From positions 1-32,930 of the IMG/VR virus record IMGVR_UViG_3300010373_000103: DNA of 32,930 nt; one strand, written 5' to 3'. Source of the DNA: a virus. The notes under the pieces were generated by a model that was not told where the DNA came from, ran no database searches, and saw nothing but the letters and a program-made list of their open reading frames with translations. Below, piece by piece: positions 2,818 through 31,287 of the stretch. A program made the translations under genes and the position numbers. The first letter of the stretch is position 1. Each line of letters begins with the position of its first letter.

Positions 2818-3478
2818 TCTCGTCTCCATTGTCTTTGCGCGGACGACCTGGGCCGCGCTTCGTCTGTTGTGCGGCCAGTTCCGCAATCTGTTGTTTCAGC
2901 ATGGCGTTATCCTGTTTCAGGACATCGACCTCGCTTTGAAGCGATACCATTTTGCCGCTGTCTCCCGATGCCGCATCCATCCAGGCTTTTGCCTTGGCGC
3001 GAACCGTCCTGAAATTGAGCGGCATGTTGTTCGCTGCGGTATCTGGCAGAACCGCGATCTGCTCGACCGTGAAGACCTTGCAGGCTTTCCATTCCAGCAC
3101 TTCGGCGCGCGACAGTTGCGGCCATTGCTCCAGAGGCATGCCGTCCGAGGTCTGCTGCTGCTGGGACTGGAATGCCGCCCATTGGCGCGGGAATCTCTCA
3201 GGATCGGCTGGACCCCATTGGTCCGTGACCATCTTCACGGGCCTGATGAGATCGTTCTTATTCCCGGGCGCGAAGATATGGACGTGGGGAACGTCCCTGT
3301 AGGTCTTGCGCGTGACCGGTTTGGGCGAGCCATCCTCATTCACGCCATCGAAGAAAACCTCCACCGGTTCCATCGTGAATTCTGCAATCAGTCCCTTGTC
3401 GTTGCCATAGGAGGCAATCGAGACATTGGAGCCTACGGGAATGAGATCACGGATTCCGACCAGACCTTCAGACGACAT
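2807..3478 (-). CDS. Conserved phage structural-module protein with coiled coil and AT-hook-like tail
   Basis: The 223-residue protein overlaps the fusion enzyme gene upstream by 11 bases. Residues 1-100 are a compact mixed domain containing GPADPERFPRQWAAF, which I associate with a conserved phage protein found near capsid genes. Residues 115-160 contain PLEQWPQLSRAEVLEWKA and a helical segment. Residues about 170-205 form a heptad-like coiled coil (VDVLKQDNAMLKQQIAELAAQ). The extreme C-terminus, KRGPGRPRKDNGDENAE, contains GRPRK, the core of an AT-hook, so the tail may touch DNA. It could be a connector, a scaffold-like helper or a DNA-binding internal protein; the exact role is unknown. 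Confidence 0.6.
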   Translation of the reverse strand: MSSEGLVGIRDLIPVGSNVSIASYGNDKGLIAEFTMEPVEVFFDGVNEDGSPKPVTRKTYRDVPHVHIFAPGNKNDLIRPVKMVTDQWGPADPERFPRQWAAFQSQQQQTSDGMPLEQWPQLSRAEVLEWKACKVFTVEQIAVLPDTAANNMPLNFRTVRAKAKAWMDAASGDSGKMVSLQSEVDVLKQDNAMLKQQIAELAAQQTKRGPGRPRKDNGDENAE

Positions 3479-5474
3479 GGGATGTTCCTTGGTTTGGCTT
3501 CCTGGCGAACCAGCAGAAGTTCTCTGCCAGTTCCAGGTGCAGCCCGTTGGCTTCGACGAATTCGTCTACGGCACGTTTCACCATCGGGCCGAACTTTTCG
3601 TCATCGTTGGCGTAATCGTGGCCCGATATGAACCCGCCTGATTTGACCTTAGCATAATACGCCGAAATGTCAGCCTTTACTCCTTCGTAGGAGTGCTCGG
3701 CGTCGAGGAAGACGAGATCGAGGGATTGGTCTGCGATGAGCTTGGCGGCTTCGGCGCTGTCTGCCCGGATGATTTCGGCTCTGTCTCCGGCAAAGGCGGT
3801 GACGCGCCTGGTAAGGGCAAAATAGCCCTCCTGCTGTTCGGCCCCCAGGGTCGCATGGAAATCTCCCGATGCCTTGTATGTTTCACGTGGAACAGTCCAG
3901 CTATCGATCATCTTGAGTGTGAGGTCTTCTCGTCGCGCCAGAAGGCGCCGGGATAGGTCACCCGCAAAGACGCCGATCTCGGCGACCTTAGGCGACTGGA
4001 CGCCCTCAAGGCGTTCCAGGATCGCACTGGCCCGGAAGTCAGCTGCCTCGGGCTTGAAGATGCCGGATTTGAACTGATTGGCGATGTCCGGGATCAGCCC
4101 AGATCCATGCACATAAAGCCTGGCGTCATGGTCCAGAAGCTGCGGCGCGAAGACCTCGAAATCCTCTGCCTGCTGGATCATCCATGGCGAGCATTTGTAA
4201 TGGTTGCCGTTGAATTCGACATCCAGAACAAGCTCCTTGTCGTTCAGGCTTTGCGGGTAGGCGTGATGTTCGCCGTCCCGGTAGCAGGAATCGAAGCCGT
4301 AAAGATGGATATGGCGATAACCGAGTGACCAGGCGATGGTCGCGGCCTTCATCCCACAAGTAGTACCGCCGCCCAGATAAGTGCGCTCACGATCCCGCCC
4401 AACAATATCAATAATGCCATCAAAAGCAGGATGCCAGTAAACCAGCCTATCGGCTGCGGCTCTGTGAACCTCCTCGGCGCATTGGGAGGCATAGAGGCAG
4501 ACTGTGTTCTGTCCGATATTCTCCACGAATTGGGCATTTTCCGGCCTCGCATCGAGAATGACGTGGAAATCCGTCTGGATCGAGAAAGCGTTCAGTACCT
4601 TCGGAACGCCATTGCAGGCGAAGATATGAGCCCCGGAACGGGCATGAGCCTGGATGGATGGTATCTCATCCTTCAAGCTAGGGCCGCCAGCGCAGATGAT
4701 GGCGACATGCCTGTGGGGATCGATGGGCTTCAGCCATGTCGTGTTGATGTCGGCTTCCGCCCTTAGGATGTTTTCCTTGATCTGTTCGGCATCGGTATTG
4801 CCGATCAGTTCGAGCTGGGAGGCTGTCGCCCCGCCGACTTTCCAGACATGATCCACCCAGCCTCCTGCTTCGTGAGGCCGTGGTTTTCCATGAAAAAAGA
4901 CAACACTTGACTTCGGCGGGACGCCAAATCGAGCATCGCGTTTATAGGAGACGAACTTTTCAGGGAACTGCTGCTGCAGGATGACAGGATACGCGACCGA
5001 ACGCTCGATCCACTCCTGGTCTCCGAACTGGAGTGCAGGACAGCCTGACGCCTGGTAGTTTTCCCAGATTTCATCGTATTTCCCGGCCTCCCATAGCATG
5101 ACCGACGATTGCAGCCCGCGTGGCCTATAGACATCGCGAAGGATAGCGAATGGGCCGTCATAGGCTGCTATTTCGTCCAGCGAACCGGTGATGACAGTAT
5201 CGAGGTCAAAATAGATAATCCGTTCGCCTTCCGGGAACGAATCAGCACCGAACAGGGAAAGTTTGTTGTACCAACCATCAACGCCTGTGGGCAGTTTCGC
5301 GAACTCTATCAGAGGATGGTAGCCATGCGCGCTCATATCGTCCGTGAAGACGACGAAACGCCCCGCCGTGCCGGCCTTCAGATTGCGCGTGATGGAGTCA
5401 TAAAGCACGTTCGCATATTCGACCCCCCGGCCCTCATAGTTGCGCCAGTTGACCGTGCAGAACGTCGTCATCAT
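3468..5474 (-). CDS. Three-domain enzyme: GT-A-like glycosyltransferase + MptE-like (DUF115) + class I methyltransferase
   Basis: One uninterrupted frame of 668 residues. Residues about 1-205 resemble a GT-A fold glycosyltransferase: a beta strand ending FVVFTDD, a metal-binding DLD at 90-92 within IIYFDLDTVI, and FFHGKPRP at 193-200. Residues about 255-465 resemble the MptE-like/DUF115 fold seen in flagellin and surface-glycan modification proteins: AIICAGGPSL at 258-267, FACNGV at 285, and TYLGGGTTCGMKA at 365-377. Residues about 485-660 are a SAM-dependent methyltransferase: motif I VAEIGVFAGDLS at 497-508, then LVFLDAEHSYEGV at 587-599 and GGFISGHDY. The gene starts at ATG 5474 after GAGGG, and 45 bases separate it from the decoration-protein gene upstream. 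It probably builds or methylates a glycan on a virion or host surface. The domain calls come from motifs; the substrate is unknown. Confidence 0.75.
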   Translation of the reverse strand: MMTTFCTVNWRNYEGRGVEYANVLYDSITRNLKAGTAGRFVVFTDDMSAHGYHPLIEFAKLPTGVDGWYNKLSLFGADSFPEGERIIYFDLDTVITGSLDEIAAYDGPFAILRDVYRPRGLQSSVMLWEAGKYDEIWENYQASGCPALQFGDQEWIERSVAYPVILQQQFPEKFVSYKRDARFGVPPKSSVVFFHGKPRPHEAGGWVDHVWKVGGATASQLELIGNTDAEQIKENILRAEADINTTWLKPIDPHRHVAIICAGGPSLKDEIPSIQAHARSGAHIFACNGVPKVLNAFSIQTDFHVILDARPENAQFVENIGQNTVCLYASQCAEEVHRAAADRLVYWHPAFDGIIDIVGRDRERTYLGGGTTCGMKAATIAWSLGYRHIHLYGFDSCYRDGEHHAYPQSLNDKELVLDVEFNGNHYKCSPWMIQQAEDFEVFAPQLLDHDARLYVHGSGLIPDIANQFKSGIFKPEAADFRASAILERLEGVQSPKVAEIGVFAGDLSRRLLARREDLTLKMIDSWTVPRETYKASGDFHATLGAEQQEGYFALTRRVTAFAGDRAEIIRADSAEAAKLIADQSLDLVFLDAEHSYEGVKADISAYYAKVKSGGFISGHDYANDDEKFGPMVKRAVDEFVEANGLHLELAENFCWFARKPNQGTSHVV

Positions 5475-5519: not shown

Positions 5520-6137
5520 TCAGATTGCGACCGTCAGATTCGGACGATTCAGGTACATCAGAGCACTTGAGGTCGTCGTTGTGATCGTCGTAAGCGTGGC
5601 GGAGCGCATGCCGATGATGCCATAAAAGGCAGAACCGACCACGCGAACGCGGCCAGCCGCAGACTTCGAGAAGTAGACCGGGGCCCCCGGCGCCATCTTC
5701 ACGGCATCCTTGAGCACGGTGCAACGTCCCTGGACCTGGAACCACGTCGCCTGCGTCAATGTGGACGAAGATGTGACCGCATTGATCGCAACTGCGATGG
5801 GAGCGCCGGATGTCGTGGTCGTGCCTGCCGAAGTCGGCAGCGCCGTCACGTCATAACCCGATCCCGAATCGCCCCATGTGTACATGAGCCCTGCCGTGAT
5901 CGTGGTCGATGTCGGAACGCGCAGGAAGATGAACTCACCCCCACCTCCGACTGTTGCATCCGAACTTTCCGCCGCCACGATCTTGCCGAACAATTGCTCG
6001 ATGGGAACGCTGGGAAGCGGGTTGAGGGTCGAGGAAACCCACGGATAGCCAAGCCCGGTCGGGCCTGTCGAGGTCGTGGAGTAGACCGCGTTCAGACCGG
6101 CGATGCCTGCCAGAGGGGCTACTGATTGATATGCCAT
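5520..6137 (-). CDS. Probable capsid decoration / minor head protein
   Basis: The 205-residue protein lies directly after the major capsid gene, with AAGGAG overlapping the capsid stop codon (TAAGGAG) and a normal distance to ATG. It starts MAYQSVAPLAGIAGLNAVYST. The rest is Ser/Thr/Gly-rich with alternating beta text: EFIFLRVPTSTTITAGLMYTW, then WFQVQGRCTVLKDAVKMAPGAPVYFS. A segment of the form 'aPGaPVYfs...grv' followed by a short C-terminal strand is common in small phage decoration proteins that trimerise on the capsid surface. No membrane or signal segment is visible. The role is inferred from position and composition. Confidence 0.55.
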   Translation of the reverse strand: MAYQSVAPLAGIAGLNAVYSTTSTGPTGLGYPWVSSTLNPLPSVPIEQLFGKIVAAESSDATVGGGGEFIFLRVPTSTTITAGLMYTWGDSGSGYDVTALPTSAGTTTTSGAPIAVAINAVTSSSTLTQATWFQVQGRCTVLKDAVKMAPGAPVYFSKSAAGRVRVVGSAFYGIIGMRSATLTTITTTTSSALMYLNRPNLTVAI

Positions 6138-6149
6138 GTGCGGTTCTCC

Positions 6150-7130
6150 TTAAGCGACCAGCACGCCCTGCAACGAACGGTTACTGACCGTCATGTTGCC
6201 GGCAAAGCCAATGAGTTTGACCATCGCGTCCTGGTTCACGGCGAATCGCTCGTCACCCAGCGGGGTGAAGAAGCGGTCCACATGAGGCCGGAAGAAGATG
6301 TAGTCCGTGTTCAACATGTACATGGTGTTGGTCGGTGCGCCGCCGCCGAAGCCGCCGTCGAGCACAACGTCCGCGTTCATGTACTTGAGGCTTGAGAAGC
6401 CGGCAGATGCCATTTCATCGCTTTGAATGCGCTGAATGGCCTGGAGGCTTTCAAGATAGAGACGCCAGTAGTTGTTGTCCGCAACGATCAGGTCAACCCG
6501 GTCGGCGCCGCGAACGAGCTGGACATACAGCCGGTTCATGTAGGACTGGATGTTGGCGACCGAAGTGGCCGAACCGCCATTAGTGACGCCTGAGAACGCG
6601 ATGTTGCGCCAGAAGGTATAGGTCGAGGCATTGATGCCGCCAACCGTGTTGGTCGGGGTCGAGGCCACAAGAGCCTGCAATCCGCCAATCTGGCGCCCGC
6701 CATCCGCCGAACCATCCGAATAGATGTCGAGCGCGATGTTGTTGGTGATGGTGCGTTCCGCGTTGCCGATGCGCGATTCGAGCAGATCGATGATCGCTTC
6801 CTCGCCGGAGTTCTGCAGCATTTCGAGGCCGGAAATCGTGACCGCGACTGCTGCCTGGGCGTAGTTGTATTCCGCGCCCGTGAACACGTCGGAAGGAGAG
6901 ATGTCCAGCGCCTCATAGCCAGAATAGCGCTTGAACGTGCCGTTCTCGGCATATTCGAGTTCCTGGACGATGGTGCGCCCGCCCGAGACTGTCTTGACTT
7001 TTCCCTTGCGTTTCAAGCGGTTAAGCAAGGCGTTGTTCTTGGTCACGTTGTCGGCCAGCTTGCCCGTTCTGTTGCGAAGCGTGGTCGTTACGATTTCCGT
7101 CAAGGTGCTTGACGGGTTAGCGAGTGCCAT
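6150..7130 (-). CDS. Major capsid protein
   Basis: The 326-residue protein begins MALANPSSTLTEIVTTTLRNR, then KLADNVTKNNALLNRLKRKGKVKTVSGGRTIVQELEY. This is the start of a phage major coat family with the HK97 fold, common in podoviruses and some siphoviruses. The central text ISGLEMLQNSGEEAIIDLLESRIGNAERTITNNIALDIYSDG is the spine-helix region. The C-terminal part, TNTMYMLNTDYIFFRPHVDRFF, gives the P-domain strands. Length fits an unprocessed coat protein, and a separate scaffold gene lies upstream. The ribosome site is AAGGGG, 10 bases before ATG. This is the surest structural call in the window after terminase and portal. Confidence 0.85.
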   Translation of the reverse strand: MALANPSSTLTEIVTTTLRNRTGKLADNVTKNNALLNRLKRKGKVKTVSGGRTIVQELEYAENGTFKRYSGYEALDISPSDVFTGAEYNYAQAAVAVTISGLEMLQNSGEEAIIDLLESRIGNAERTITNNIALDIYSDGSADGGRQIGGLQALVASTPTNTVGGINASTYTFWRNIAFSGVTNGGSATSVANIQSYMNRLYVQLVRGADRVDLIVADNNYWRLYLESLQAIQRIQSDEMASAGFSSLKYMNADVVLDGGFGGGAPTNTMYMLNTDYIFFRPHVDRFFTPLGDERFAVNQDAMVKLIGFAGNMTVSNRSLQGVLVA

Positions 7131-14322: not shown

Positions 14323-16692
14323 CTATTCTCCTGATGCTTCGCGGGCTTCTGCCTGATCGCCTGCGTCAATTTTTGCGGATATGCGAGCCACTTCGATGGA
14401 AGCAGCGGCTTGGATGTGGGCAATCTTGAGCCGGATGTCGCCTTCCATCTGGATCTTGGCGAGGGCGCTGCGTTCTTCCATCTGCAGCCGCGCGGCTTCC
14501 AGCTCATTCTCATGCTGGGATGTGATGAGTGCCTGCTGGGCGTCTGACGCGTTCTTGGCCTGATCGGCTTGCACCTTGGCGGCCTGTATCTGCTGGTCGG
14601 CCTGGACCTTGACCTGCTCCAGTTGCGCTTCCTGCTGCATCTTCTGCTGGGATAGCTGCGCATCGGATTGCGCCTTGGCTTGCGCCAGTTGCAGTTCGCC
14701 CTGAACCTTGGCCATGGCCGGATCGGGCTTGGGTTGTGGGTTCTGCGCGGCCTTCTCCAGCTTCTGGATGAGAGAATTCATCGCGCCCTCCAGCTCTTTC
14801 CCGACCGGGAAGGCTCGGACTGCAAACATCACCACCTGGAACAGGAACGGCAGGACTTCGGGCGGGGCGCTTTCGGCCTGCTGAACAAGCTGGCCAATCG
14901 TGGTGATGAACTCCAGACGAGAGGCCTTTTCGCTTTCCTCATCCGCCTTGATGGTAGAATCCGTCTCGATGTCGATGCGGAAGGAACGCAGCGCATTGTT
15001 GCGGATTAGGCCTTCGACATCCTCCCAGCTGGGGTCATTCAGCATGGTATCGAGCTGGTCGGGCGTGATGCCCTTGGGGAGCGGAGGTGGCGCAACCGGC
15101 GAGGACATGGGGGATGGTTGCGCCACTCCGGGAGCAGCCTGGAATGGCTGAGGCTGCGCTCCCATATTCGCCTGCCCCGAAGGACTACCCTGAGGAGGAG
15201 TCATTGCAGGCGAATAAATCATCTTCTCGGCGTTGGTGAACAACCGGATGCCGGAAATCGTCTTGATGGTGTCGATCTGGAACTTGTTGCAGATCATGTC
15301 CACCAGAATACGGATAACGCCGCGAATGAACCGTTGCACTTCACGCTGGCGGTCGCTGATGCGCGCCGTGGCGAACTGCGACTTGATCATCTGGGCGGAT
15401 GCGGTTTCCTCCGGCTCGGATGAGCCTCGAATGATGTCCGCAATGCCAGTGATTTCGTAAAGATCGTTCTTGGTCTGGTCACGCGCCTGATACATGGCGG
15501 CAACCGCATTGGCGATGCCATCCACAGGCAGCATGGCAAGAATGCCGGCCAAGCCGCCCTTCTCGGTCAAGGATGCCCATTGTTCAACCGGGACTAGCGC
15601 GTTCTCCGTGCCTTCACTGAGAATGCGTCCAATCGCAGGAGCCGATGCATCATAGGCACCCACCACCTTGAGCGATTTGATGGTGGAGTGAATTCGCCCT
15701 GTTAGCGTGTCCAGTTCAACGGCTTGGTCCTGATATTCAATGTAGTCTGGGGTGGGGATGAGGCTGTCGTTGGCGAGTGTGGCAAATAGAGGCTTTGGAC
15801 AGGGGAAAAATCCGTCAAGACCAAGCGGATCATCCCGGAGGTCCAGCGCTTCTGGAATGTCACGGTGGAACCATACGGCGCACTCGCGCTCCTTGTCCCA
15901 GAGTTCATAGATAGTGGATTTGCCGACCCCGTTGTCGATGACATTGTCGCGGTCATCCTTCTGCTTGTAGTCGAGCGGGGGAAGATTGCCCTGCTTTTCC
16001 CCGAAGCGCTTGATCAGTTCCTTGCGGCTGAGATAGACCTTCCTCCAGACGCAATAGACTTCTTCCCATGTGCGGCAGATATTGTGGCCGAAGTCGTCGG
16101 CATGGACGTAGTCGGTTAACGCTTCCTCGAAGTCGATGACCTCGGGCGGCTCGTCCTTGTCCTCGTATTGCTCGTCTTCGCCTTCGACCGCGTCGTCGGT
16201 GACTTCGAGAGGCGCTTCCTTGAAACTCGGACTGTAACGACACCAGACGGTTCCCCGTCCTCCGAGAAGGTAATCGAGAACACATTGCCGGGCAGTCGCT
16301 GCAAAATGATCCGTGTCCACGAAATAGGACACTGATCGTTCGAGAACCTGACTAGTGATTCTGCCCACTGGGTCAGCGTCTTTGAACCGTCTCTGGATGT
16401 CTGGCTTGGGATTGCGGGCATAAAGGGCCGGGAGCTGGGTTTGAACCATCGACCATAGCACATTGTAGCGTGCCACGGAATTCTCGGCTGCGCTGCGCTC
16501 GTCCTTATACCGGCGCTGGATCTTCTCGACCCGCTTCTGCCAGGTGCGTACTTCGCGGTCATAGAGTTGGATCTCAGCCAGCCATTTGGCGATCTTGCGT
16601 AGGTCTTTATCGCCTTCGGCTGTCTGGCGCTCGGTGGCCTGTTCGCCACCCGACATGGCCAGATTGGTGCCGGATTCTCCGATGCCGCTCAT
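14323..16692 (-). CDS. Portal protein
   Basis: The 789-residue protein opens with a helical region (about 25-75: LAEIQLYDREVRTWQKRVEKIQRRYKDER). It then shows WSMVQTQLPALYARNPKPDIQRR and CVLDYLLGGRGTVWCRY, characteristic of P22-like portal proteins. The middle holds the stem and wing text, with YEITGIADIIRGSSEPEETASAQMIKSQFA around 415-445. From about 640 to 780 there is a very long Gln/Ala/Glu/Lys coiled coil (AQAKAQSDAQLSQQKMQQEAQLEQ), matching the long barrel of this family. A Pro/Gln-rich linker lies near 500-545. It would form the twelve-part ring through which DNA enters. The start is ATG 16692. Length is close to the P22 portal plus an extended barrel. Confidence 0.85.
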   Translation of the reverse strand: MSGIGESGTNLAMSGGEQATERQTAEGDKDLRKIAKWLAEIQLYDREVRTWQKRVEKIQRRYKDERSAAENSVARYNVLWSMVQTQLPALYARNPKPDIQRRFKDADPVGRITSQVLERSVSYFVDTDHFAATARQCVLDYLLGGRGTVWCRYSPSFKEAPLEVTDDAVEGEDEQYEDKDEPPEVIDFEEALTDYVHADDFGHNICRTWEEVYCVWRKVYLSRKELIKRFGEKQGNLPPLDYKQKDDRDNVIDNGVGKSTIYELWDKERECAVWFHRDIPEALDLRDDPLGLDGFFPCPKPLFATLANDSLIPTPDYIEYQDQAVELDTLTGRIHSTIKSLKVVGAYDASAPAIGRILSEGTENALVPVEQWASLTEKGGLAGILAMLPVDGIANAVAAMYQARDQTKNDLYEITGIADIIRGSSEPEETASAQMIKSQFATARISDRQREVQRFIRGVIRILVDMICNKFQIDTIKTISGIRLFTNAEKMIYSPAMTPPQGSPSGQANMGAQPQPFQAAPGVAQPSPMSSPVAPPPLPKGITPDQLDTMLNDPSWEDVEGLIRNNALRSFRIDIETDSTIKADEESEKASRLEFITTIGQLVQQAESAPPEVLPFLFQVVMFAVRAFPVGKELEGAMNSLIQKLEKAAQNPQPKPDPAMAKVQGELQLAQAKAQSDAQLSQQKMQQEAQLEQVKVQADQQIQAAKVQADQAKNASDAQQALITSQHENELEAARLQMEERSALAKIQMEGDIRLKIAHIQAAASIEVARISAKIDAGDQAEAREASGE

Positions 16693-23046: not shown

Positions 23047-23372
23047 AAACTGGCCCCAAGCCAAGGCCGGTCTTGGAGCGCATGGAAAAGTTCATCGTGC
23101 GTGATCCGAATAGCGGGTGCTGGCTATGGAGTGGCGCGCTTTCAGTCGGCGGATACGCTATGATCGGAAATCCACAGAGGCGCGGCGGTTATGTATACGG
23201 CCATAGAGCCGCGTTCGAGCACGCCTATGGGCCAATCCCAGACGGCTTGGAAATAGATCACAAATGCAGAATTCGTATGTGCGTAAACCCAGCGCACATG
23301 GAAGCAGTTTCACATTCGGAAAACATGAAACGTGGCTGGCATTTTCGGAGGATACAAAGTGGAAAAATCTGA
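23043..23372 (+). CDS. HNH endonuclease
   Basis: The start is GTG 23043, overlapping the previous stop (GTGA), giving 109 residues. It begins VKTGPKPRPVLERMEKFIV, then CWLWSGALSVGGYAMI, and has the HNH core IDHKCRIRMCVNPAHMEAVS (near 71-90). The WSG / gY / H.R..fe...G..p.g...dH.C....CVNP.H layout is typical of phage HNH nucleases that recur in several copies. The gene overlaps the ERF gene. It may be a homing-type nuclease or a packaging or replication helper; I see no intron signs. Confidence 0.75.
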   Translation: MKTGPKPRPVLERMEKFIVRDPNSGCWLWSGALSVGGYAMIGNPQRRGGYVYGHRAAFEHAYGPIPDGLEIDHKCRIRMCVNPAHMEAVSHSENMKRGWHFRRIQSGKI

Positions 23373-23991
23373 GCAAATAAATGAATTAGCGGCCGCACTT
23401 TCAAAAGCGCAGGCTAAAATAGAAAGCGCGACAAAATCAGCGAAAAATCCTTTCTACCGCAGTTCTTATGCTGATTTGCCGGCTTGCTGGGATGCCTGCC
23501 GAGGGCCTCTAACGTCCAACGGATTGTCGGTTGTTCAGCTTATGGACACATCGGAAAACGGCATTGTTCTAGAGAGCGTCCTGCTTCATTCCAGCGGCCA
23601 ATGGATTTCCTGCCATTACCCCGTCAAACCGGTTAAGGACGACCCACAGGGGCTTGGCAGCGCTCTGACCTATTCTCGTCGATACTCGCTCATGGCCTTG
23701 GTTGGGCTTGTGGCGGACAATGAGGACGATGATGGAAACGCTGCCTCCGGCCACAAGGAACCGGTATCCGTCGAATCATCCATGGATGCTGGTCTAAGCC
23801 GCAGGGAGCACTTCAAGGCCGAAGGCATGGAAGCGGCGGAAGGCGGTTCCTACGTTCTGGCGACATGGTGGAAAAAGCTGCAGCCGTCCGAGCAGCGGAC
23901 ACTTGAAAAGTTCAAGAACGAGACGCTAAAGCCGATTGCCGAGGCGGTTGACAACGAGGCTGCAAATAAAATCGGAGCCCAGCAGGTATGA
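23359..23991 (+). CDS. erf: ERF-family single-strand annealing protein
   Basis: The start is GTG 23359 with GGAGG eight bases before it; an upstream ATG at 23332 is less likely. The 210-residue product has the ERF signature: NPFYRSSYADLPACW (30-44), LSVVQ (56-60), and GLGSALTYSRRYSLMALVGLVADNEDDDGNAA (98-129). It should promote annealing and recombination of single strands during phage replication and concatemer formation. No exonuclease partner is obvious, though the next gene may be one of its accessory proteins. Confidence 0.85.
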   Translation: MEKSEQINELAAALSKAQAKIESATKSAKNPFYRSSYADLPACWDACRGPLTSNGLSVVQLMDTSENGIVLESVLLHSSGQWISCHYPVKPVKDDPQGLGSALTYSRRYSLMALVGLVADNEDDDGNAASGHKEPVSVESSMDAGLSRREHFKAEGMEAAEGGSYVLATWWKKLQPSEQRTLEKFKNETLKPIAEAVDNEAANKIGAQQV

Positions 23992-26839: not shown

Positions 26840-27270
26840 GCGTCTATTTCATCCAGTACGGGAACTCGCCCCAAATCAAGATCGGGCACGCCTCGGAACC
26901 ATTGGAGCGTATTCGCAACTTCCAGTGCGGGTGTCCTGAGAAGATCACCATTCTTGCCCTCATTGACGGCGGCAGGGAAACCGAGCGCGCAATCCATCAA
27001 CGCTTCGCCCATTTAAAGGTCAGGGCACGGGGCGAGTGGTTCGTGCTGGACGACGAGCTACGGGCGTTTATCGCCAGCCCTGAGGCTGTGGAGGCCACGC
27101 AGCGCCCACGGCAGACCAAGAGCATCGGGGCCGCCCAGCACCTCAAGGCCGCTTGGCTGTCCCGCCGCTACTCGTCCGACGACGAAATGTGCTGGATGTT
27201 CGGCATGGACCGGGAACTTCTCCAAGCCGAGTTCGGTCCGTCAGGAAGGCCAGAATATGATTCAGACTAA
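26836..27270 (+). CDS. GIY-YIG (MUG113/T5orf172-like) nuclease
   Basis: The 144-residue protein has VYFIQYGN (3-10), IKIGHASEPLERIRNFQCGCPE (15-35) and ILALIDGGRETERAIHQRFAHLKVRARGEWFVL (39-71). This is the T5orf172/MUG113 branch of the GIY-YIG superfamily: an FIQ/G strand, KIG, a conserved Arg and Glu 50 with the IHQRF helix. The C-terminal half (SDDEMCWMFGMDRELL) is less conserved. It may cut DNA or branched DNA. It overlaps both neighbours. Confidence 0.75.
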   Translation: MSVYFIQYGNSPQIKIGHASEPLERIRNFQCGCPEKITILALIDGGRETERAIHQRFAHLKVRARGEWFVLDDELRAFIASPEAVEATQRPRQTKSIGAAQHLKAAWLSRRYSSDDEMCWMFGMDRELLQAEFGPSGRPEYDSD

Positions 27271-27343
27271 AGAGGTCGCGGAAGCCCTCAAGATCAGCAC
27301 GCAAACCCTGTTCCTGTATCTGCGCGACAAGAGACTTAAGTAG
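27257..27343 (+). CDS. 28-residue helix-turn-helix mini-protein
   Basis: The product MIQTKEVAEALKISTQT plus LFLYLRDKRLK is only the first helix-turn-helix of an excisionase/MerR-type domain ('tkeVAeaLkIS.qTlflYlr'). It overlaps the nuclease gene by 14 bases and has a weak ribosome site (GGAAGG). It could be a remnant of a longer regulator or a true mini-protein. Translation is likely from the fixed packing. Confidence 0.5.
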   Translation: MIQTKEVAEALKISTQTLFLYLRDKRLK

Positions 27344-27351
27344 AGGAGCCG

Positions 27352-27456
27352 ATGATGGCTAGGAAATTTGAGAGCTGGTGGTGCGAGCGATGCAAGGTCG
27401 AAGTGTACGACCGGCGCTGCAAGCATTGCGGCAAGCTGAAATGGGAAAAGAAATAA
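27352..27456 (+). CDS. 34-residue zinc-ribbon mini-protein
   Basis: The product has WWCERCKVEVYDRRCKHCGKLKWEKK: two CxxC pairs 13 residues apart, a short zinc ribbon, rich in Lys and Arg. It begins with two Met codons after AGGAGCCG. It may bind nucleic acid or a host protein. No named family. Confidence 0.65.
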   Translation: MMARKFESWWCERCKVEVYDRRCKHCGKLKWEKK

Positions 27457-27469
27457 GAGGAGCCGGGAC

Positions 27470-27703
27470 GTGGACAAACGAGAGCGCTTTGATTTGCGGC
27501 TACAAGGCTTCGCAGTCGGCATAATTCTCGGCGGCGGCGCGTTCCTATGGGCTGGTTGGCAAGACACAGACCGCGCATGGAGAGAGGCGCGAGCAGTAAC
27601 CGTGACACAGGTTGGACCGCAATGTAGCGACGGTGATACTTGGTGGCCCGCGAGAAAACGTGGCCCCCAAGTTGTCTGTTTCCTTGCTGATAAACCCAAA
27701 TAA
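27470..27703 (+). CDS. Small single-pass membrane protein
   Basis: The start is GTG 27470 after AGGAGCCGG. The 77-residue product starts VDKRERFDLRLQGFAVGIILGGGAFLWAGW: a charged head and one hydrophobic helix (about 14-30). A hydrophilic tail with two Cys (QCSDGD, VVCFLAD) follows. It probably lies in the inner membrane with a periplasmic or outward tail. Role unknown. Confidence 0.55.
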   Translation: MDKRERFDLRLQGFAVGIILGGGAFLWAGWQDTDRAWREARAVTVTQVGPQCSDGDTWWPARKRGPQVVCFLADKPK

Positions 27704-27821
27704 CGGAGCATTAAGCGCCGACATGAAGCGAAACTAGTTTCGGGAATTGTTTATATCTATCGCATTCGGTAGCCGGATGTAACCGAACGGCCATAGACGG
27801 CGCAATCAATTAGGAGAATTT
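27704..27821. promoter_or_regulatory. 118-base gap before the methyltransferase with two inverted repeats
   Basis: No gene is present. CGAAACTAGTTTCG (27729-27742) is a perfect 14-base palindrome. TTCGGT (27765-27770) and ACCGAA (27782-27787) form an inverted repeat around 11 bases. Between them lies an A/T-rich stretch (TTTATATCTAT). The last bases hold AGGAG for the GTG of the methyltransferase. These signs fit a regulated promoter. Confidence 0.45.
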
Positions 27822-28328
27822 GTGGAACAGCTTGCACTCATAGATGGCCTGCCGCGTGAGTTGACGCATCAATCGCAGCTTGCTCCGCGCGAGAACAAAT
27901 TCCACATCGGCAACGGCGACGACGGCAAGCACTACTGGCTGACGCCGCCTGCGCTCTATGCCGAACTGGACGCCGAGTTCCACTTCGACTTCGATCCTTG
28001 CCCCTACCCATTGCCCGAAGGCTTCGACGGCCTGACGTGCGAGTGGGGATCCTCGAACTACGTCAACCCGCCCTTCGGCTCGATCATTCATCAGGGCAAG
28101 AAGAAGGGACCGACCGCTTGGGTGCGCAAGGCGATCATCGAGTTCAAAAAGGGCAAGACCGTGGTGCTAGTCTACCCGGTGGACAAGTGGGTGCTGATGC
28201 TCCTCGAAGCCATTGGTACTGAGGTGCGCAACCTTCGCGACGTGCGCTGGTTGGCGACTGAGGATGGATCCGAGGGCAAAGGCACCGGACGGCACATTGC
28301 CTGCTTTATCCTCAAACCAGAATCGTAA
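27822..28328 (+). CDS. dam: Phage DNA N6-adenine methyltransferase (Dam family)
   Basis: The start is GTG 27822 with AGGAG eight bases before. The 168-residue protein has HYWLTPPALYAELDAEF (37-53), FDPCPYPLP (57-65) and WGSSNYVNPPFG (75-86). NPPF (82-85) is the catalytic motif and DPCP/WLTPP are the usual marks of the phage Dam family. Later, KTVVLVYPVDKW and the end (RHIACFILKP) match the fold. It should methylate adenine in phage DNA to resist host restriction or set replication timing. Site specificity cannot be read from sequence. Confidence 0.85.
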   Translation: MEQLALIDGLPRELTHQSQLAPRENKFHIGNGDDGKHYWLTPPALYAELDAEFHFDFDPCPYPLPEGFDGLTCEWGSSNYVNPPFGSIIHQGKKKGPTAWVRKAIIEFKKGKTVVLVYPVDKWVLMLLEAIGTEVRNLRDVRWLATEDGSEGKGTGRHIACFILKPES

Positions 28329-28345
28329 GATAGGGAGCGCCGTGC

Positions 28346-28549
28346 ATGGACGATGACAAGGTGGACGTGACGCTCAAGGCTCTCGACATGGCCGAGCGAG
28401 CTTTCCGGCAACGTGACACAATCAAGGATTTCGCTTGGCGTGCCGCTGCGCTGCTCCGCTTCTTGCGTGAGCATGACGGGGAGTGCTTGGGCGATCATCC
28501 TGATTGGCTGGCGCGGATCGACGCGCTGCTCAACGAGAATCTGGGATAA
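28346..28549 (+). CDS. Hypothetical helical protein
   Basis: The 67-residue product (MDDDKVDVTLKALDMAERAFRQRDTIKDFAWRAAALLRFLREHDGEC) is helical with an acidic head and a WLARIDALLNENLG end. It starts after GGGAGCGCCG, a loose variant of the cassette. Family unknown. Confidence 0.5.
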   Translation: MDDDKVDVTLKALDMAERAFRQRDTIKDFAWRAAALLRFLREHDGECLGDHPDWLARIDALLNENLG

Positions 28550-28560
28550 AGGAGCCGAGG

Positions 28561-28641
28561 ATGCAGCGCGTCATATGGCTTTGGATAGGCGCTACAAGCA
28601 TAGCGCTACTTTTGTGGCGCGCAGGTTTTTTGCATCTATGA
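28561..28641 (+). CDS. 26-residue single-helix membrane peptide
   Basis: The product MQRVIWLWIGATSIALLL plus WRAGFLHL is one hydrophobic helix with an Arg at each end. It has AGGAGCCGA just before the ATG, and its TGA is followed by the next cassette. Clear initiation signals make it more than a random frame. Confidence 0.6.
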   Translation: MQRVIWLWIGATSIALLLWRAGFLHL

Positions 28642-28655
28642 AAGGAGCCGAGCCA

Positions 28656-28817
28656 ATGGCGAAGTGGCATGTGATCTACAATTTCACGGTTGAGCGGACC
28701 TACGAGGTTGAAGCTCCCGACGAGGCGTCGGCGATCAAGACCGCTCGCGACGAAGGTCGCATCGTGAACGAGAGTGAGGACACGAGCGACTTGGAACATG
28801 TCGAGAAAGTCGGATAA
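28656..28817 (+). CDS. 53-residue beta-alpha small protein
   Basis: The product (MAKWHVIYNFTVERTYEVEAPDEASAIKTARDEGRI and so on) shows strand-strand-helix text ('V..nf.Ve.tyeVEApDEasAikta'), as in small phage proteins that keep a ferredoxin-like half. It begins five bases after AGGAGCCGA. Function is unknown. Confidence 0.6.
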   Translation: MAKWHVIYNFTVERTYEVEAPDEASAIKTARDEGRIVNESEDTSDLEHVEKVG

Positions 28818-28833
28818 AGGAGGGAGCCGAGCC

Positions 28834-29127
28834 ATGACCGAGCCAACAGCGGAGCAGATGCAATGCGGACACGTTCTTTACGGGCCGCCTGCACTCTGCA
28901 CATGCGGGACGTGCGAAGGCGCACCACCAGCCGACTATGACGAGATGGCCATGCGCGCGATCCTGGCCGAGGAAGTCAAAGAGCGCGGCGGTCCGCAGGA
29001 CTACATCGCAATGCTCGGCAACCGCTGGATGGAAATCGACAGCGAACTTCCGCCGGAGCTATCAGCGGCCTTGGCCGCGATGCTTCGGGCTTGGAAGGCC
29101 GGACGCGAACTAGAAGCTAAGACGTAG
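28834..29127 (+). CDS. Zinc-knuckle and helix small protein
   Basis: The 97-residue product has CGHVLYGPPALCTCGTCEG near 11-30 (four Cys, one His; a zinc site). A helical domain follows (YDEMAMRAILAEEVKERGG, then PPELSAALAAMLRAWKAGRELE). It starts after GGAGCCGA. Its helical half is acidic. No family is recognised. Confidence 0.55.
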   Translation: MTEPTAEQMQCGHVLYGPPALCTCGTCEGAPPADYDEMAMRAILAEEVKERGGPQDYIAMLGNRWMEIDSELPPELSAALAAMLRAWKAGRELEAKT

Positions 29128-29138
29128 GAGCCGAGAAC

Positions 29139-29327
29139 ATGATTGACTGGAAGCCGCGAGACATCGTTGACCGCGCGCAGGAGCTTTACTTCCGCAAGAT
29201 GCGTGGACCGAATGCAAGGCTACCGAACGGCCTTGCCGCTGACATAATCTGGGACGGCCTATTGCCTGACATCCGCAATAAGTATTACGCGCAAGCCAGA
29301 CGCGAACTTGGAATAGACCATGCCTGA
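29139..29327 (+). CDS. Hypothetical basic protein
   Basis: The 62-residue product (MIDWKPRDIVDRAQELYFRKMRGPNARLPNGL, then YYAQARRELGIDHA) is a basic, helical small protein. It begins after AGGAGCCGA and overlaps the next gene by eight bases. Unknown family. Confidence 0.55.
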   Translation: MIDWKPRDIVDRAQELYFRKMRGPNARLPNGLAADIIWDGLLPDIRNKYYAQARRELGIDHA

Positions 29328-29481
29328 ACTAAAATTCTGCTCACATGACGCTCGCTGCAAAGGACCGCGCCTAATCGACAACCACGCCACGCTCTGTCCA
29401 GACAGCAAGACGGAAGATTGCGACAATGACCATTGCTGGGTGCCATGTGAGTTCTGCATTGGAGACATAGACATAAACTAG
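29320..29481 (+). CDS. Cys/His-rich 53-residue protein
   Basis: The product has CSHDARCKG (7-15), LCPDS, DCDNDHCWVPCEFC and a GDIDIN end: seven Cys and several His residues, enough for two zinc sites. The first ATG overlaps the previous gene's stop. The ribosome site is weak. Role unknown. Confidence 0.55.
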   Translation: MPELKFCSHDARCKGPRLIDNHATLCPDSKTEDCDNDHCWVPCEFCIGDIDIN

Positions 29482-29518
29482 AATTGGAAAGACGGGAGCC
29501 GGGACATTTCCTAGGATA

Positions 29519-29740
29519 ATGACGCACATGACCCAAGGAATCATACCAAGAGATGCTAAGGACTACGCAATCGAGTTCGGGGAATATCTTGCGACCGCTG
29601 CCGAGAGCTATATGAGCGCCGCTGACGTTCGTATCTCCACAAAAATCGGCGTTGGCGAGCAAGAGGCATTGGCGGAACGATTTGTTGCGCTTCGCTCTGC
29701 AATCTACGAGTTCCGCAAGCGTGCCGAGAGAGCAAAGTAG
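29519..29740 (+). CDS. Acidic helical protein with hairpin leader (MTQG type)
   Basis: The 73-residue product begins MTHMTQGIIPRDAKDYAIEF and then AESYMSAADVRIS. The alternative start at 29528 gives MTQG, which aligns exactly with the gene at 30519. The leader has GGAGCCG at 29495, about 20-30 bases from the start, with a hairpin (29499-29515) between; this spacing is unusual. The protein is helical and ends basic. Function unknown. Confidence 0.5.
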   Translation: MTHMTQGIIPRDAKDYAIEFGEYLATAAESYMSAADVRISTKIGVGEQEALAERFVALRSAIYEFRKRAERAK

Positions 29741-29752
29741 AGGAGCCGAGAC

Positions 29753-29908
29753 GTGGACGAGAGTATCTGCCAAGAATGCGGCAAGTCGATCACGAAAGGA
29801 ATGTTCTGCTGGAACTACGGCGACTTCATGGGAAAGATGCTGTGCGACAACTGCGTGGACATTTGGACCGACTGGTTGGAACAAGAAGAACCGGAAATGA
29901 AAGATTAG
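29753..29908 (+). CDS. 51-residue zinc protein
   Basis: The start is GTG 29753, after AGGAGCCGA. The product has ICQECGKSITKGMFCWNYGDFMGKMLCDNCVDIW: two CxxC pairs about 22 residues apart plus one Cys in the middle, and an acidic tail. A treble-clef or LIM-like zinc fold is likely. Confidence 0.65.
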   Translation: MDESICQECGKSITKGMFCWNYGDFMGKMLCDNCVDIWTDWLEQEEPEMKD

Positions 29909-29917
29909 GAGCCAGCC

Positions 29918-30070
29918 ATGGAACGCGACCAAATGTGTCCAGACTGTCGCAAGCCTAACAAGCTGACAAAGCAAGAGCGGTACGATCATAAGCATTGCGA
30001 TGAATGCACCAAGGAATGCCGGAAGATGATGGAAACACTATCGGCGCACGTTCTCGTAACGGTCAACTGA
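29918..30070 (+). CDS. 50-residue zinc protein
   Basis: The product (MERDQMCPDCRKPNKLTKQERYDHKHCDECTKECRKM and so on) has CPDC, then HKHCDEC and a further C: a zinc ribbon with a basic centre. It begins after AGGAGCCA and ends in TGA directly before the next cassette. Confidence 0.65.
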   Translation: MERDQMCPDCRKPNKLTKQERYDHKHCDECTKECRKMMETLSAHVLVTVN

Positions 30071-30079
30071 GGAGCCAAG

Positions 30080-30268
30080 ATGTCGCGCACGTTTGAAATC
30101 CCATTTCTCGTGAGTGGCAACCGGCAGTATCTCACCGGCCAACAGATGGCGGAGGAACCGGCGATCAGAGAATTTGTGGAAAGGTTCCCAGCGTGCTTTG
30201 AGTTTGACTGCACGCGGGACATCGTTTGGTTTTATCCAGACGGCGACGCGCCAGAGACTAAGACATAG
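30080..30268 (+). CDS. Hypothetical 62-residue protein
   Basis: The product starts MSRTFEIPFLVSGNRQYLTGQQMAEEPAIREFVERF, then CTRDIVWFYPDGDAPETKT. It is an alpha/beta protein with an IVWFYPDGD strand at the end. It starts after AGGAGCCAA; the stop TAG is part of the next cassette. Unknown family. Confidence 0.6.
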   Translation: MSRTFEIPFLVSGNRQYLTGQQMAEEPAIREFVERFPACFEFDCTRDIVWFYPDGDAPETKT

Positions 30269-30276
30269 GAGCCGAA

Positions 30277-30486
30277 GTGGGAACGCATTGCGGACGGATA
30301 GGAATGTGGCGCGGCGGCTGTCGGTTTGAGCCTCGATACGATCTTGGTGCTCCCACCATTCTGCGGACGGCAGCGCCACTGGTTGACAGTGTGTGCGACC
30401 AGATTGAAGCATCGAAGCCGCGCACTTACGTCCGCGATGTATGTGTATCGTGCGGCAAGACCGTTGAACGAGAAACGAAGAAGTAG
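30277..30486 (+). CDS. Small CxxC protein
   Basis: The start is GTG 30277, after TAGGAGCCGA. The 69-residue product has VGTHCGRIGMWRGGCRF at its head and DVCVSCGKTVERETKK at its end, so a zinc site could join the two. It ends with the next cassette. Family unknown. Confidence 0.55.
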   Translation: MGTHCGRIGMWRGGCRFEPRYDLGAPTILRTAAPLVDSVCDQIEASKPRTYVRDVCVSCGKTVERETKK

Positions 30487-30489
30487 GAG

Positions 30490-30506
30490 CCGAGGCAGTT
30501 CCTCGG
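30490..30506 (+). promoter_or_regulatory. Hairpin between ribosome site and start of the MTQG-type gene
   Basis: CCGAGG (30490-30495) pairs with CCTCGG (30501-30506) around CAGTT, six perfect base pairs. It begins inside the AGGAGCCGA motif and lies between AGGAG and the start codon 33 bases away. A weaker form occupies the same place before the gene at 29519. Confidence 0.5.
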
Positions 30507-30518
30507 ACATTGACCGCC

Positions 30519-30656
30519 ATGACCCAAGGAATTGTATCAAGCCCTGACAGCTCAAAAGGCGTTGAAATATGGCTGGCGCAGATCGCAGCGCGCAGGGCTG
30601 ATGATGCCGCTCGGGCGAGACGTTGGTTCGATAGTCTGCCGATGGTGCGCCGTTAA
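30519..30656 (+). CDS. 45-residue MTQG-type peptide
   Basis: The product (MTQGIVSSPDSSKGVEIWLAQIAARRADDAARARRWF and so on) is a basic Ala/Arg helix. Its leader and first codons align without gaps with those of the gene at 29519. A TTG at 30510 is an alternative start, three codons earlier. It is followed by a TAATG junction. Confidence 0.5.
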   Translation: MTQGIVSSPDSSKGVEIWLAQIAARRADDAARARRWFDSLPMVRR

Positions 30657-30829
30657 TGGACAAGACAGAACAGCGATGCCGGGAAATCCTCGCCCAGGAG
30701 GTTGAAGCTTCCAGGATGCAGGCTGAGACTGCCAAGCATCTTCGCTCAGGCGGCAAACTGTTGGGGTGGCCTGCACTGGCGCTCAGGGCAATGATACGCA
30801 TTGCAGATGCGCCTGAAACACCGAAGTAG
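30656..30829 (+). CDS. 57-residue amphipathic helix protein
   Basis: The product (MDKTEQRCREILAQEVEASRMQAETAKHLRSGGKLLGWPALALRAM and so on) is a helical protein with a polar first half and a shorter apolar second half. It starts in a TAATG junction. Its TAG lies in the next cassette. Family unknown. Confidence 0.55.
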   Translation: MDKTEQRCREILAQEVEASRMQAETAKHLRSGGKLLGWPALALRAMIRIADAPETPK

Positions 30830-30838
30830 GAGCGAACA

Positions 30839-31081
30839 TTGAAACGCGACAAGAGGGGTAACTGTGCGCGGTGTAGCGGCAAAGGAACCACTGAGTGGAT
30901 TTCTTTTGAGAGGCTGTCCAGCGAGGGGCAGAAATATTTTGACGAAACAAAATGCCCAGACTGCGGTGGTAACGGCGGTCACCCGATGACGCCAAAACGC
31001 CAACAGCAAATCGAGTATGCGGCTAAATGGATAGACGAATTTATGCGAAAGCAGGGTTGGTATGATCCACGAGAAAGCTGA
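30839..31081 (+). CDS. 80-residue DnaJ-type zinc mini-protein
   Basis: The start is TTG 30839, seven bases after AGGAG. The product has NCARCSGKGTTEW and TKCPDCGGNGG: two CxxCxGxG units spaced by about 28 residues, the DnaJ-like zinc pattern again. A helical tail follows (TPKRQQQIEYAAKWIDEFMRKQGW). It is of the same type as the gene at 22470 and may share a role. Confidence 0.65.
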   Translation: MKRDKRGNCARCSGKGTTEWISFERLSSEGQKYFDETKCPDCGGNGGHPMTPKRQQQIEYAAKWIDEFMRKQGWYDPRES

Positions 31082-31098
31082 ATAAGGAAGAACACACG

Positions 31099-31287
31099 AT
31101 GACCCGTCTAGACAAACTTACCTGCACAGCAGGCTTTCTGGCCCTCGCATTGATCTGTGATCTTGGTGCTATGGGATGGCAGAGTGAAAGGCCTGCGTTC
31201 GCAGCCCATCTCCTGCTTCTTGCCGTGGTGTTTGCGGCTTTGGGGCTGTGGTTCTTCTGGACACTCAGCAGAACTTACCGAGCCTGA
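31099..31287 (+). CDS. Two-helix membrane protein ending the rightward array
   Basis: The 62-residue product has helix 1 CTAGFLALALICDLGAMGW and helix 2 FAAHLLLLAVVFAALGLWFFW, with a basic end. It has AAGGAAG before ATG. It overlaps, tail to tail, the frameshifted membrane gene on the other strand. It may be a membrane partner of the small-gene set. Unknown. Confidence 0.55.
   Translation: MTRLDKLTCTAGFLALALICDLGAMGWQSERPAFAAHLLLLAVVFAALGLWFFWTLSRTYRA

Follow-up and report, generated by a model that had tools for sequence, protein, structure and literature searches.

The question raised by this locus is why nearly every gene in a dense chain of tiny phage genes begins behind the same short sequence, and what that sequence does besides binding the ribosome. 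The window analysed here, IMG/VR record IMGVR_UViG_3300010373_000103 at its full length of 32,930 bases, comes from an unclassified phage with no host genome attached. On its plus strand, AGGAGCCGA and its near variants mark 14 joints between successive small open reading frames (ORFs), from 27345 to 30829 (positions being those of the first G of GGAG), in line with the roughly 13 copies reported in the initial annotation. Nearly every gene start in this array sits behind a two-part signal, which includes an ordinary ribosome-binding site (RBS) and extends beyond it.

27257..31287, plus strand: array of 19 small ORFs of 26-168 amino acids, 91% coding, with the ERF and HNH genes on one side and minus-strand lysis genes on the other

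A constant tail confined to the array

Exact copies of AGGAGCCGA number eight in the window, all on the plus strand and none on the minus strand. Seven of them lie within the array (27344-30493), against a mean of 0.05 and a maximum of 2 in dinucleotide shuffles of the array, and the eighth, at 15637, lies antisense within the portal gene; the excess over both shuffled sequence and the rest of the genome that the initial annotation had anticipated is thus present. Within the array, GGAGCC occurs 12 times on the plus strand and not at all on the minus strand. A CC follows 10 of 14 starts anchored by a Shine-Dalgarno (SD) sequence in the array, compared with 3 of 41 elsewhere in the window on both strands (Fisher p = 8e-6), so the tail belongs to the array and not to the RBSs of this phage generally.

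At 12 of the 14 joints, the stop codon of the preceding gene overlaps GGAG or ends 0-5 nt before it (TAGGAG, TGAGGAG, TAAAGGAG, TAGAGGAG), much as the idea of a stop built into the motif had proposed; the exceptions are joint 28334, with its stop 8 nt upstream, and joint 29495, whose stop TAG falls within the upstream box described below. Most joints have the usual 5-8 nt between AGGAG and the start, which places the start about 1-4 nt after CCGA and 3-6 nt past the end of the core AGGAGCC, while at joints 29495 and 30486 the start lies farther away, beyond a small inverted repeat.

Such ordinary spacing, together with the overlaps of stop, SD and start often seen where phage genes are densely packed, e.g., in lambda nin, would suit the simplest account of the array, namely plain strong RBSs in which stop-SD overlap is usual for dense operons and the constant tail reflects host preference or chance. 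We regard this as improbable: elsewhere in the genome of this phage, genes carry other tails, the tail and the upstream box stand far above shuffled or jittered controls, the lambda nin junctions have no constant tail, and CCGA is merely average in pairing to 16S rRNA. With an assumed 16S 3' tail of GGAUCACCUCCUUUCU, CCGAG ranks at 0.73 among all 5-nt tails and its CC stays unpaired; better 16S pairing was accordingly rejected as the reason for CCGA, and the earlier suggestion that this tail is constant beyond the needs of ribosome binding gains support. Looser local RNA structure at the starts was likewise rejected, as folding shows no gain. Searches at the array joints for Rfam families, tRNAs, and an excess of promoters or terminators found none.

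An upstream box in fixed phase with the Shine-Dalgarno sequence

Gapless alignment of the 14 joints on GGAG brings out a second conserved block, unnoticed in the initial annotation: a box C-N-R-G-A-R at positions -17 to -12. The linkers are as follows (all on the plus strand).

27328..27352, plus strand: linker 1, CAAGAG-N11-GGAGCCGA
27442..27466, plus strand: linker 2, TGGGAA-N11-GGAGCCGG
28317..28341, plus strand: linker 3, CCAGAA-N11-GGAGCGCC, variant tail
28534..28558, plus strand: linker 4, CGAGAA-N11-GGAGCCGA
28627..28651, plus strand: linker 5, GGAGCCGA, upstream box not recognisable
28802..28830, plus strand: linker 6, CGAGAA-N11-GGAG, a second (duplicated) GGAG, then CCGA
29110..29134, plus strand: linker 7, CTAGAA-N11-GGAGCCGA
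29478..29502, plus strand: linker 8, CTAGAA-N11-GGAGCCGG, then an imperfect inverted repeat and the start of an MTQGI gene
29725..29749, plus strand: linker 9, CGAGAG-N11-GGAGCCGA
29891..29915, plus strand: linker 10, CCGGAA-N11-GGAGCCAG
30054..30078, plus strand: linker 11, weak box, GGAGCCAA, stop TGA
30251..30275, plus strand: linker 12, CCAGAG-N11-GGAGCCGA
30469..30493, plus strand: linker 13, CGAGAA-N11-GGAGCCGA, then the inverted repeat CCGAGG-CAGTT-CCTCGG
30812..30836, plus strand: linker 14, CCTGAA-N11-GGAGCGAA

The first box lies inside the 3' end of the gene that opens the array:

27257..27343, plus strand: 28-amino-acid ORF with the helix-turn-helix-like sequence MIQTKEVAEALKISTQTLFLYLRDKRLK

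The best six columns of the box hold 6.06 bits of information, and none of 4000 random or jittered controls exceeds 3.4. The combined pattern CNRGAR-N10-RGGAGCCRR is matched perfectly at 8 places in the window, each of them in the array and on the plus strand. No further conserved block was found from -40 to -18, leaving a single asymmetric 6-nt box. Its distance from the SD is constant although the preceding stop occupies differing phases; the box therefore spans different reading frames and is not a product of protein conservation. The 11-nt interior between box and SD is not conserved, and two conserved blocks flanking a random interior fit recognition and count against neutral copying alone.

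In two places, 29495-29530 and 30486-30521, an inverted repeat separates the linker from the start of an MTQGI gene, the second being a perfect CCGAGG-CAGTT-CCTCGG; it could draw the distant SD near the start codon. The two MTQGI genes are alike in linker, leader and first codons, and differ in their remaining sequence.

Recognition as the favoured explanation

We favour, with moderate confidence, the explanation that the array joints are a phage-specific two-part start-associated element for translation, kept constant by a recognising factor, with gene exchange as a by-product. The stop of one tiny gene and the SD and spacer of the next would be fused in one element, which would start translation of each tiny gene on one polycistronic early mRNA, and the closeness of stop and SD may permit coupled termination and restart. 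The box and the CCRR tail would be held constant by a putative common factor, phage- or host-encoded, which would thereby control the array as one regulon. Recognition at the RNA level seems more likely than at the DNA level, since the phase of the element relative to the SD does not vary.

A DNA-level site, whether an operator, a stoperator or a per-gene promoter overlapping the RBS by chance, is accordingly unlikely. It would account for the CGAGAA-like letters common to box and tail, which lie 22 nt (about two helical turns) apart, and DNA binding is what the authors of the Cluster K mycobacteriophage study prefer for their extended start-associated sequences (PMC3203893). Nevertheless, the phase with the SD is fixed at nearly every joint, sigma-70-like promoters are not in excess there, and a promoter in this position would begin transcripts at or past the SD.

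Probable gene movement at the joints

Since each gene of the array is bounded by copies of one element, that element would also act as a short homology joint for the gain, loss and copying of single genes. Two genes of the window are needed to follow this point, both identified by family matches.

23359..23991, plus strand: ERF-family single-strand annealing recombinase
27822..28328, plus strand: N6-adenine methyltransferase, Dam family

Rad52-like annealases, Erf included, recombine short or diverged homologies (PMC3945230), and the ERF annealase of the window phage plausibly acts at its joints. Joint edges are seen directly in other phages, which are linked to the window phage through the methyltransferase gene only. 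In one of them, L070 (IMGVR_UViG_3300037342_000011; methyltransferase 88% identical), two copies of a 202-nt segment, 100% identical, lie 1070 nt apart, at 3827-4028 and 4897-5098, and differ in the neighbouring genes on both sides. The left edge of the segment is TTAGGAG, in which the SD and the stop TAG of the preceding gene are joined, and its right edge is ATAGGAGCGACCG, directly before the next start codon, so that the copied unit is one 59-amino-acid gene with a joint at either end. Furthermore, in L102, L110 and L121, which share the methyltransferase at 90-93%, unrelated next genes begin one base past the next RBS-ATG, and in L122 and L123 one edge of the copied segments coincides with an RBS. 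The proposal of cassette boundaries made in the initial annotation thus has direct cases in phages sharing only the methyltransferase; for the window phage itself, whose array has no relative among those searched, gene exchange can only be presumed.

Other repeats were seen at these loci. An exact 98-nt leader stands before two different genes in L049 (4640-4737 and 5900-5997) and ends just before the start codon. The duplications in L072 and L147 were rejected as joint-edged copies because their edges are not at RBSs; that of L072 is a 185-nt repeat (98%; 5639-5823 and 6815-6999) which flanks the methyltransferase gene, bears terminal inverted repeats GGGAATTACATGCTTGACTC and looks like a small mobile element. 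In L107, on the minus strand, a long identical leader GGTATCCGTGATACGGAGGATGGAGGGGTCATG is common to two genes, at 6794 and 7403. In L063, Bradyrhizobium phage ppBjS10J-1, a direct duplication of 1061 nt (99.4%; 34629-35689 and 35674-36734) covers the region of the ERF gene.

These movements bear on a further explanation, in which the joints are recombination linkers only, alike through copying or exchange of linkers and of gene-plus-linker cassettes within the phage's gene pool, with no factor reading box or tail. We consider this a real possibility, if one short of probable. The exact single-gene cassette copy in L070, the linker copies in L122, L123 and L049, the common linker and first codons of the MTQGI pair, and a tail private to each phage are what it would predict, as are the look-alike interiors in the window, where 6 linker pairs reach at least 8/11 identity against 1.2 expected (p 0.001). 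That interior excess is lost, however, once the stop columns are omitted (p 0.18-0.39), and if the linkers had decayed evenly from one ancestor, two blocks around a random interior should not have been spared.

Several observations weigh against recognition by a factor. Relatives of the array were not found, so the linker is seen to be conserved within a single genome only. Over 21-38 nt, some linker pairs resemble each other, which may partly reflect shared descent. As regards exchange as its by-product, homology edges over all loci compared fall near starts in 20 of 137 cases, not all of them independent, against 10.7 expected; with an enrichment of only about twofold, joint exchange is a property of some joints and not a law.

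Relatives and an independent analogue

Searches of the phage collection and IMG/VR for DNA or protein relatives of the array found none, the methyltransferase excepted. Terminase relatives (G001 and others, 64% at the amino-acid level) show no such array, their contigs stopping near its expected place; a search for prophage relatives in 84,980 genomes gave three distant terminase matches only; and ERF relatives show no constant tail. Many contigs carry the methyltransferase, and its RBS varies widely among them; that of the window is TTAGGAGAATTTGTG, which has the tail of the L070 type and not the array tail. Across 80 methyltransferase loci, a constant tail was absent except in L082/L165 and, partly, L070.

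L082/L165 (IMGVR_UViG_3300022201_000096) shares only the methyltransferase gene with the window and has a tiny-gene chain of its own. Its joints carry a two-part element, CAARCT-N8-TAGGAGCGGAT, with 7.37 bits compared with at most 6.2 in 6000 controls, and its box lies partly within non-coding gaps. Tail and box together occur only in the window and L165 among the loci scanned. The existence of this independent analogue is as directly observed as the two-part conservation, SD phase, array restriction and reading-frame independence of the window element. The letters differ: L165 uses CGGAT and L070 uses AATTT and CGACC, so the expectation that CCGA would be kept in other phages fails, and the element is lineage-specific and not universal.

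Other candidates were AGGAGCCGA-rich contigs, of which L043, L054, L060 and L157 were rejected as coding tandem repeats and L154 because it looks like one. In the mycobacteriophage TM4, taken as a positive control for its known start-associated sequences (SAS), CC follows 11 of 28 SD-anchored starts and AGGAGCC occurs 13 times forward and 0 times in reverse; the same scan gave no such signal in Rhodoferax P26218, Ochrobactrum OH, Manatee Spring podovirus, Rhizobium RHph_I3_18 or Bradyrhizobium ppBjS10J-1. A GC-rich contig, L039, has the motif CGAGGAGCCGAGCG four times on its minus strand (2981-3943), several copies lying immediately before ATG, and is possibly another SAS-like array.

Likeness to known systems

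Among known systems, the SAS of Cluster K mycobacteriophages, with the consensus GGGATAGGAGCCC (PMC3203893), comes closest; the likeness was already raised in the initial annotation and is real in position, strand bias, gene class and core. Both have the core TAGGAGCC, a single orientation, restriction to non-structural genes (start-linked copies in the window lie only on the plus strand at 27.3-30.8 kb), a place few nucleotides before the start (3-7 bp in Cluster K, 3-6 nt from the core AGGAGCC here) and conserved positions unable to pair with 16S rRNA. The differences concern the 13-bp sequence, the gaps and the inverted repeats. Cluster K genomes hold 11-19 copies of GGGATAGGAGCCC with at most 2 deviations, whereas the window element has neither its 5' GGGA nor its third C, and the best matches in the window, 7 sites with 3 mismatches against 8.9 expected, one of them in the array, are no more than chance. 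Cluster K sites mostly follow gaps of more than 50 bp, while stops in the window abut or overlap the SD or lie within 5 nt of it at 12 of 14 joints; and the extended Cluster K form has 17-bp imperfect inverted repeats just upstream, where the window has one 6-nt box 11 nt upstream. The element thus falls outside strict Cluster K membership and yet, as far as sequence can show, works like an SAS.

Microbacterium Cluster EF phages, compared by published description, have an SAS and extended SAS consisting of GGGAAAGGACCCC and a GTAGAG box (PMC7302621). This layout of an SD motif, a separate and well-conserved short box just upstream, and a C directly after the SD core recurs in the window, and the pairing of SD motif and upstream box recurs in L165 as well, with different letters; EF boxes lie in non-coding gaps, whereas window boxes usually fall within the closing stretch of the gene before. 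A C directly after the SD core is common to Cluster K (AGGAG-CCC), Cluster EF (AAGGA-CCCC), the window (AGGAG-CCGA) and L165 (AGGAG-CGGA), as judged from published consensus sequences and our own data, and might end anti-SD pairing as a 'cap'.

The lambdoid nin region (Kroger and Hobom, 1982, cited in PMC8022706) resembles the array in layout, with interlinked small genes lying between replication or recombination genes and a Q-type gene, in the window only a possible one; the lambda junctions have no constant tail. The small-gene chain is present in the window, the Q-like match is weak, and no NinB-type gene was identified. The match in question is the last linker-preceded gene:

30839..31081, plus strand: possible Q-like antiterminator with a DnaJ-type zinc motif (phrog_6060, E = 1e-4)

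In addition, earlier discussion of mycobacteriophages has considered short conserved boundary sequences as sites of exchange, among them stretches of likeness in the 3' ends of adjacent small genes (PMC3029335; Island3 gene 68). Homology at gene 3' ends and starts is there, as here, a proposed point of exchange for single small genes; unlike those boundaries, that of the window is one repeated two-part element spanning the whole array.

Genomic setting

The terminase, portal and major head protein genes all lie on the minus strand of the window, and the plus-strand early region begins with the HNH and ERF genes and ends with the dense chain of small ORFs. The array encodes, besides the Dam-type methyltransferase, several CxxC zinc-ribbon-like proteins and a 26-amino-acid ORF resembling a membrane helix. 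Family searches gave no significant match for most array genes, which leaves their earlier description as host-takeover factors a guess. Affiliation with podoviruses, as the initial annotation had it, is plausible: the phage is most similar to proteobacterial podoviruses, and some of its terminase relatives were deposited as podoviruses. Among the structural genes, a 668-amino-acid product (3468-5474) has glycosyltransferase-like and methyltransferase-like parts suggested by sequence alone.

Implications

To our knowledge, SAS have been reported in actinobacteriophages since 2011 without a known function, and in the literature searched, which left most subscription papers uncovered, we found no report of such an element outside these phages. 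The window phage and L165, with their different letters, suggest that SAS belong to a wider kind that is two-part and lineage-specific, and this points to a factor that recognises it. Moreover, L070, in which a single phage gene has been copied exactly from stop-SD to next start codon, offers a concrete test bed for the gain of tiny accessory genes. A bolder and, in our judgement, rather doubtful extension is that unrelated phage lineages independently evolve private two-part linker codes, each made up of an upstream box and a capped SD, and that a translation factor encoded by the phage reads them. If this were true, such codes would amount to a plug-in system, in which a tiny gene acquired behind the linker would join the early regulon at once.

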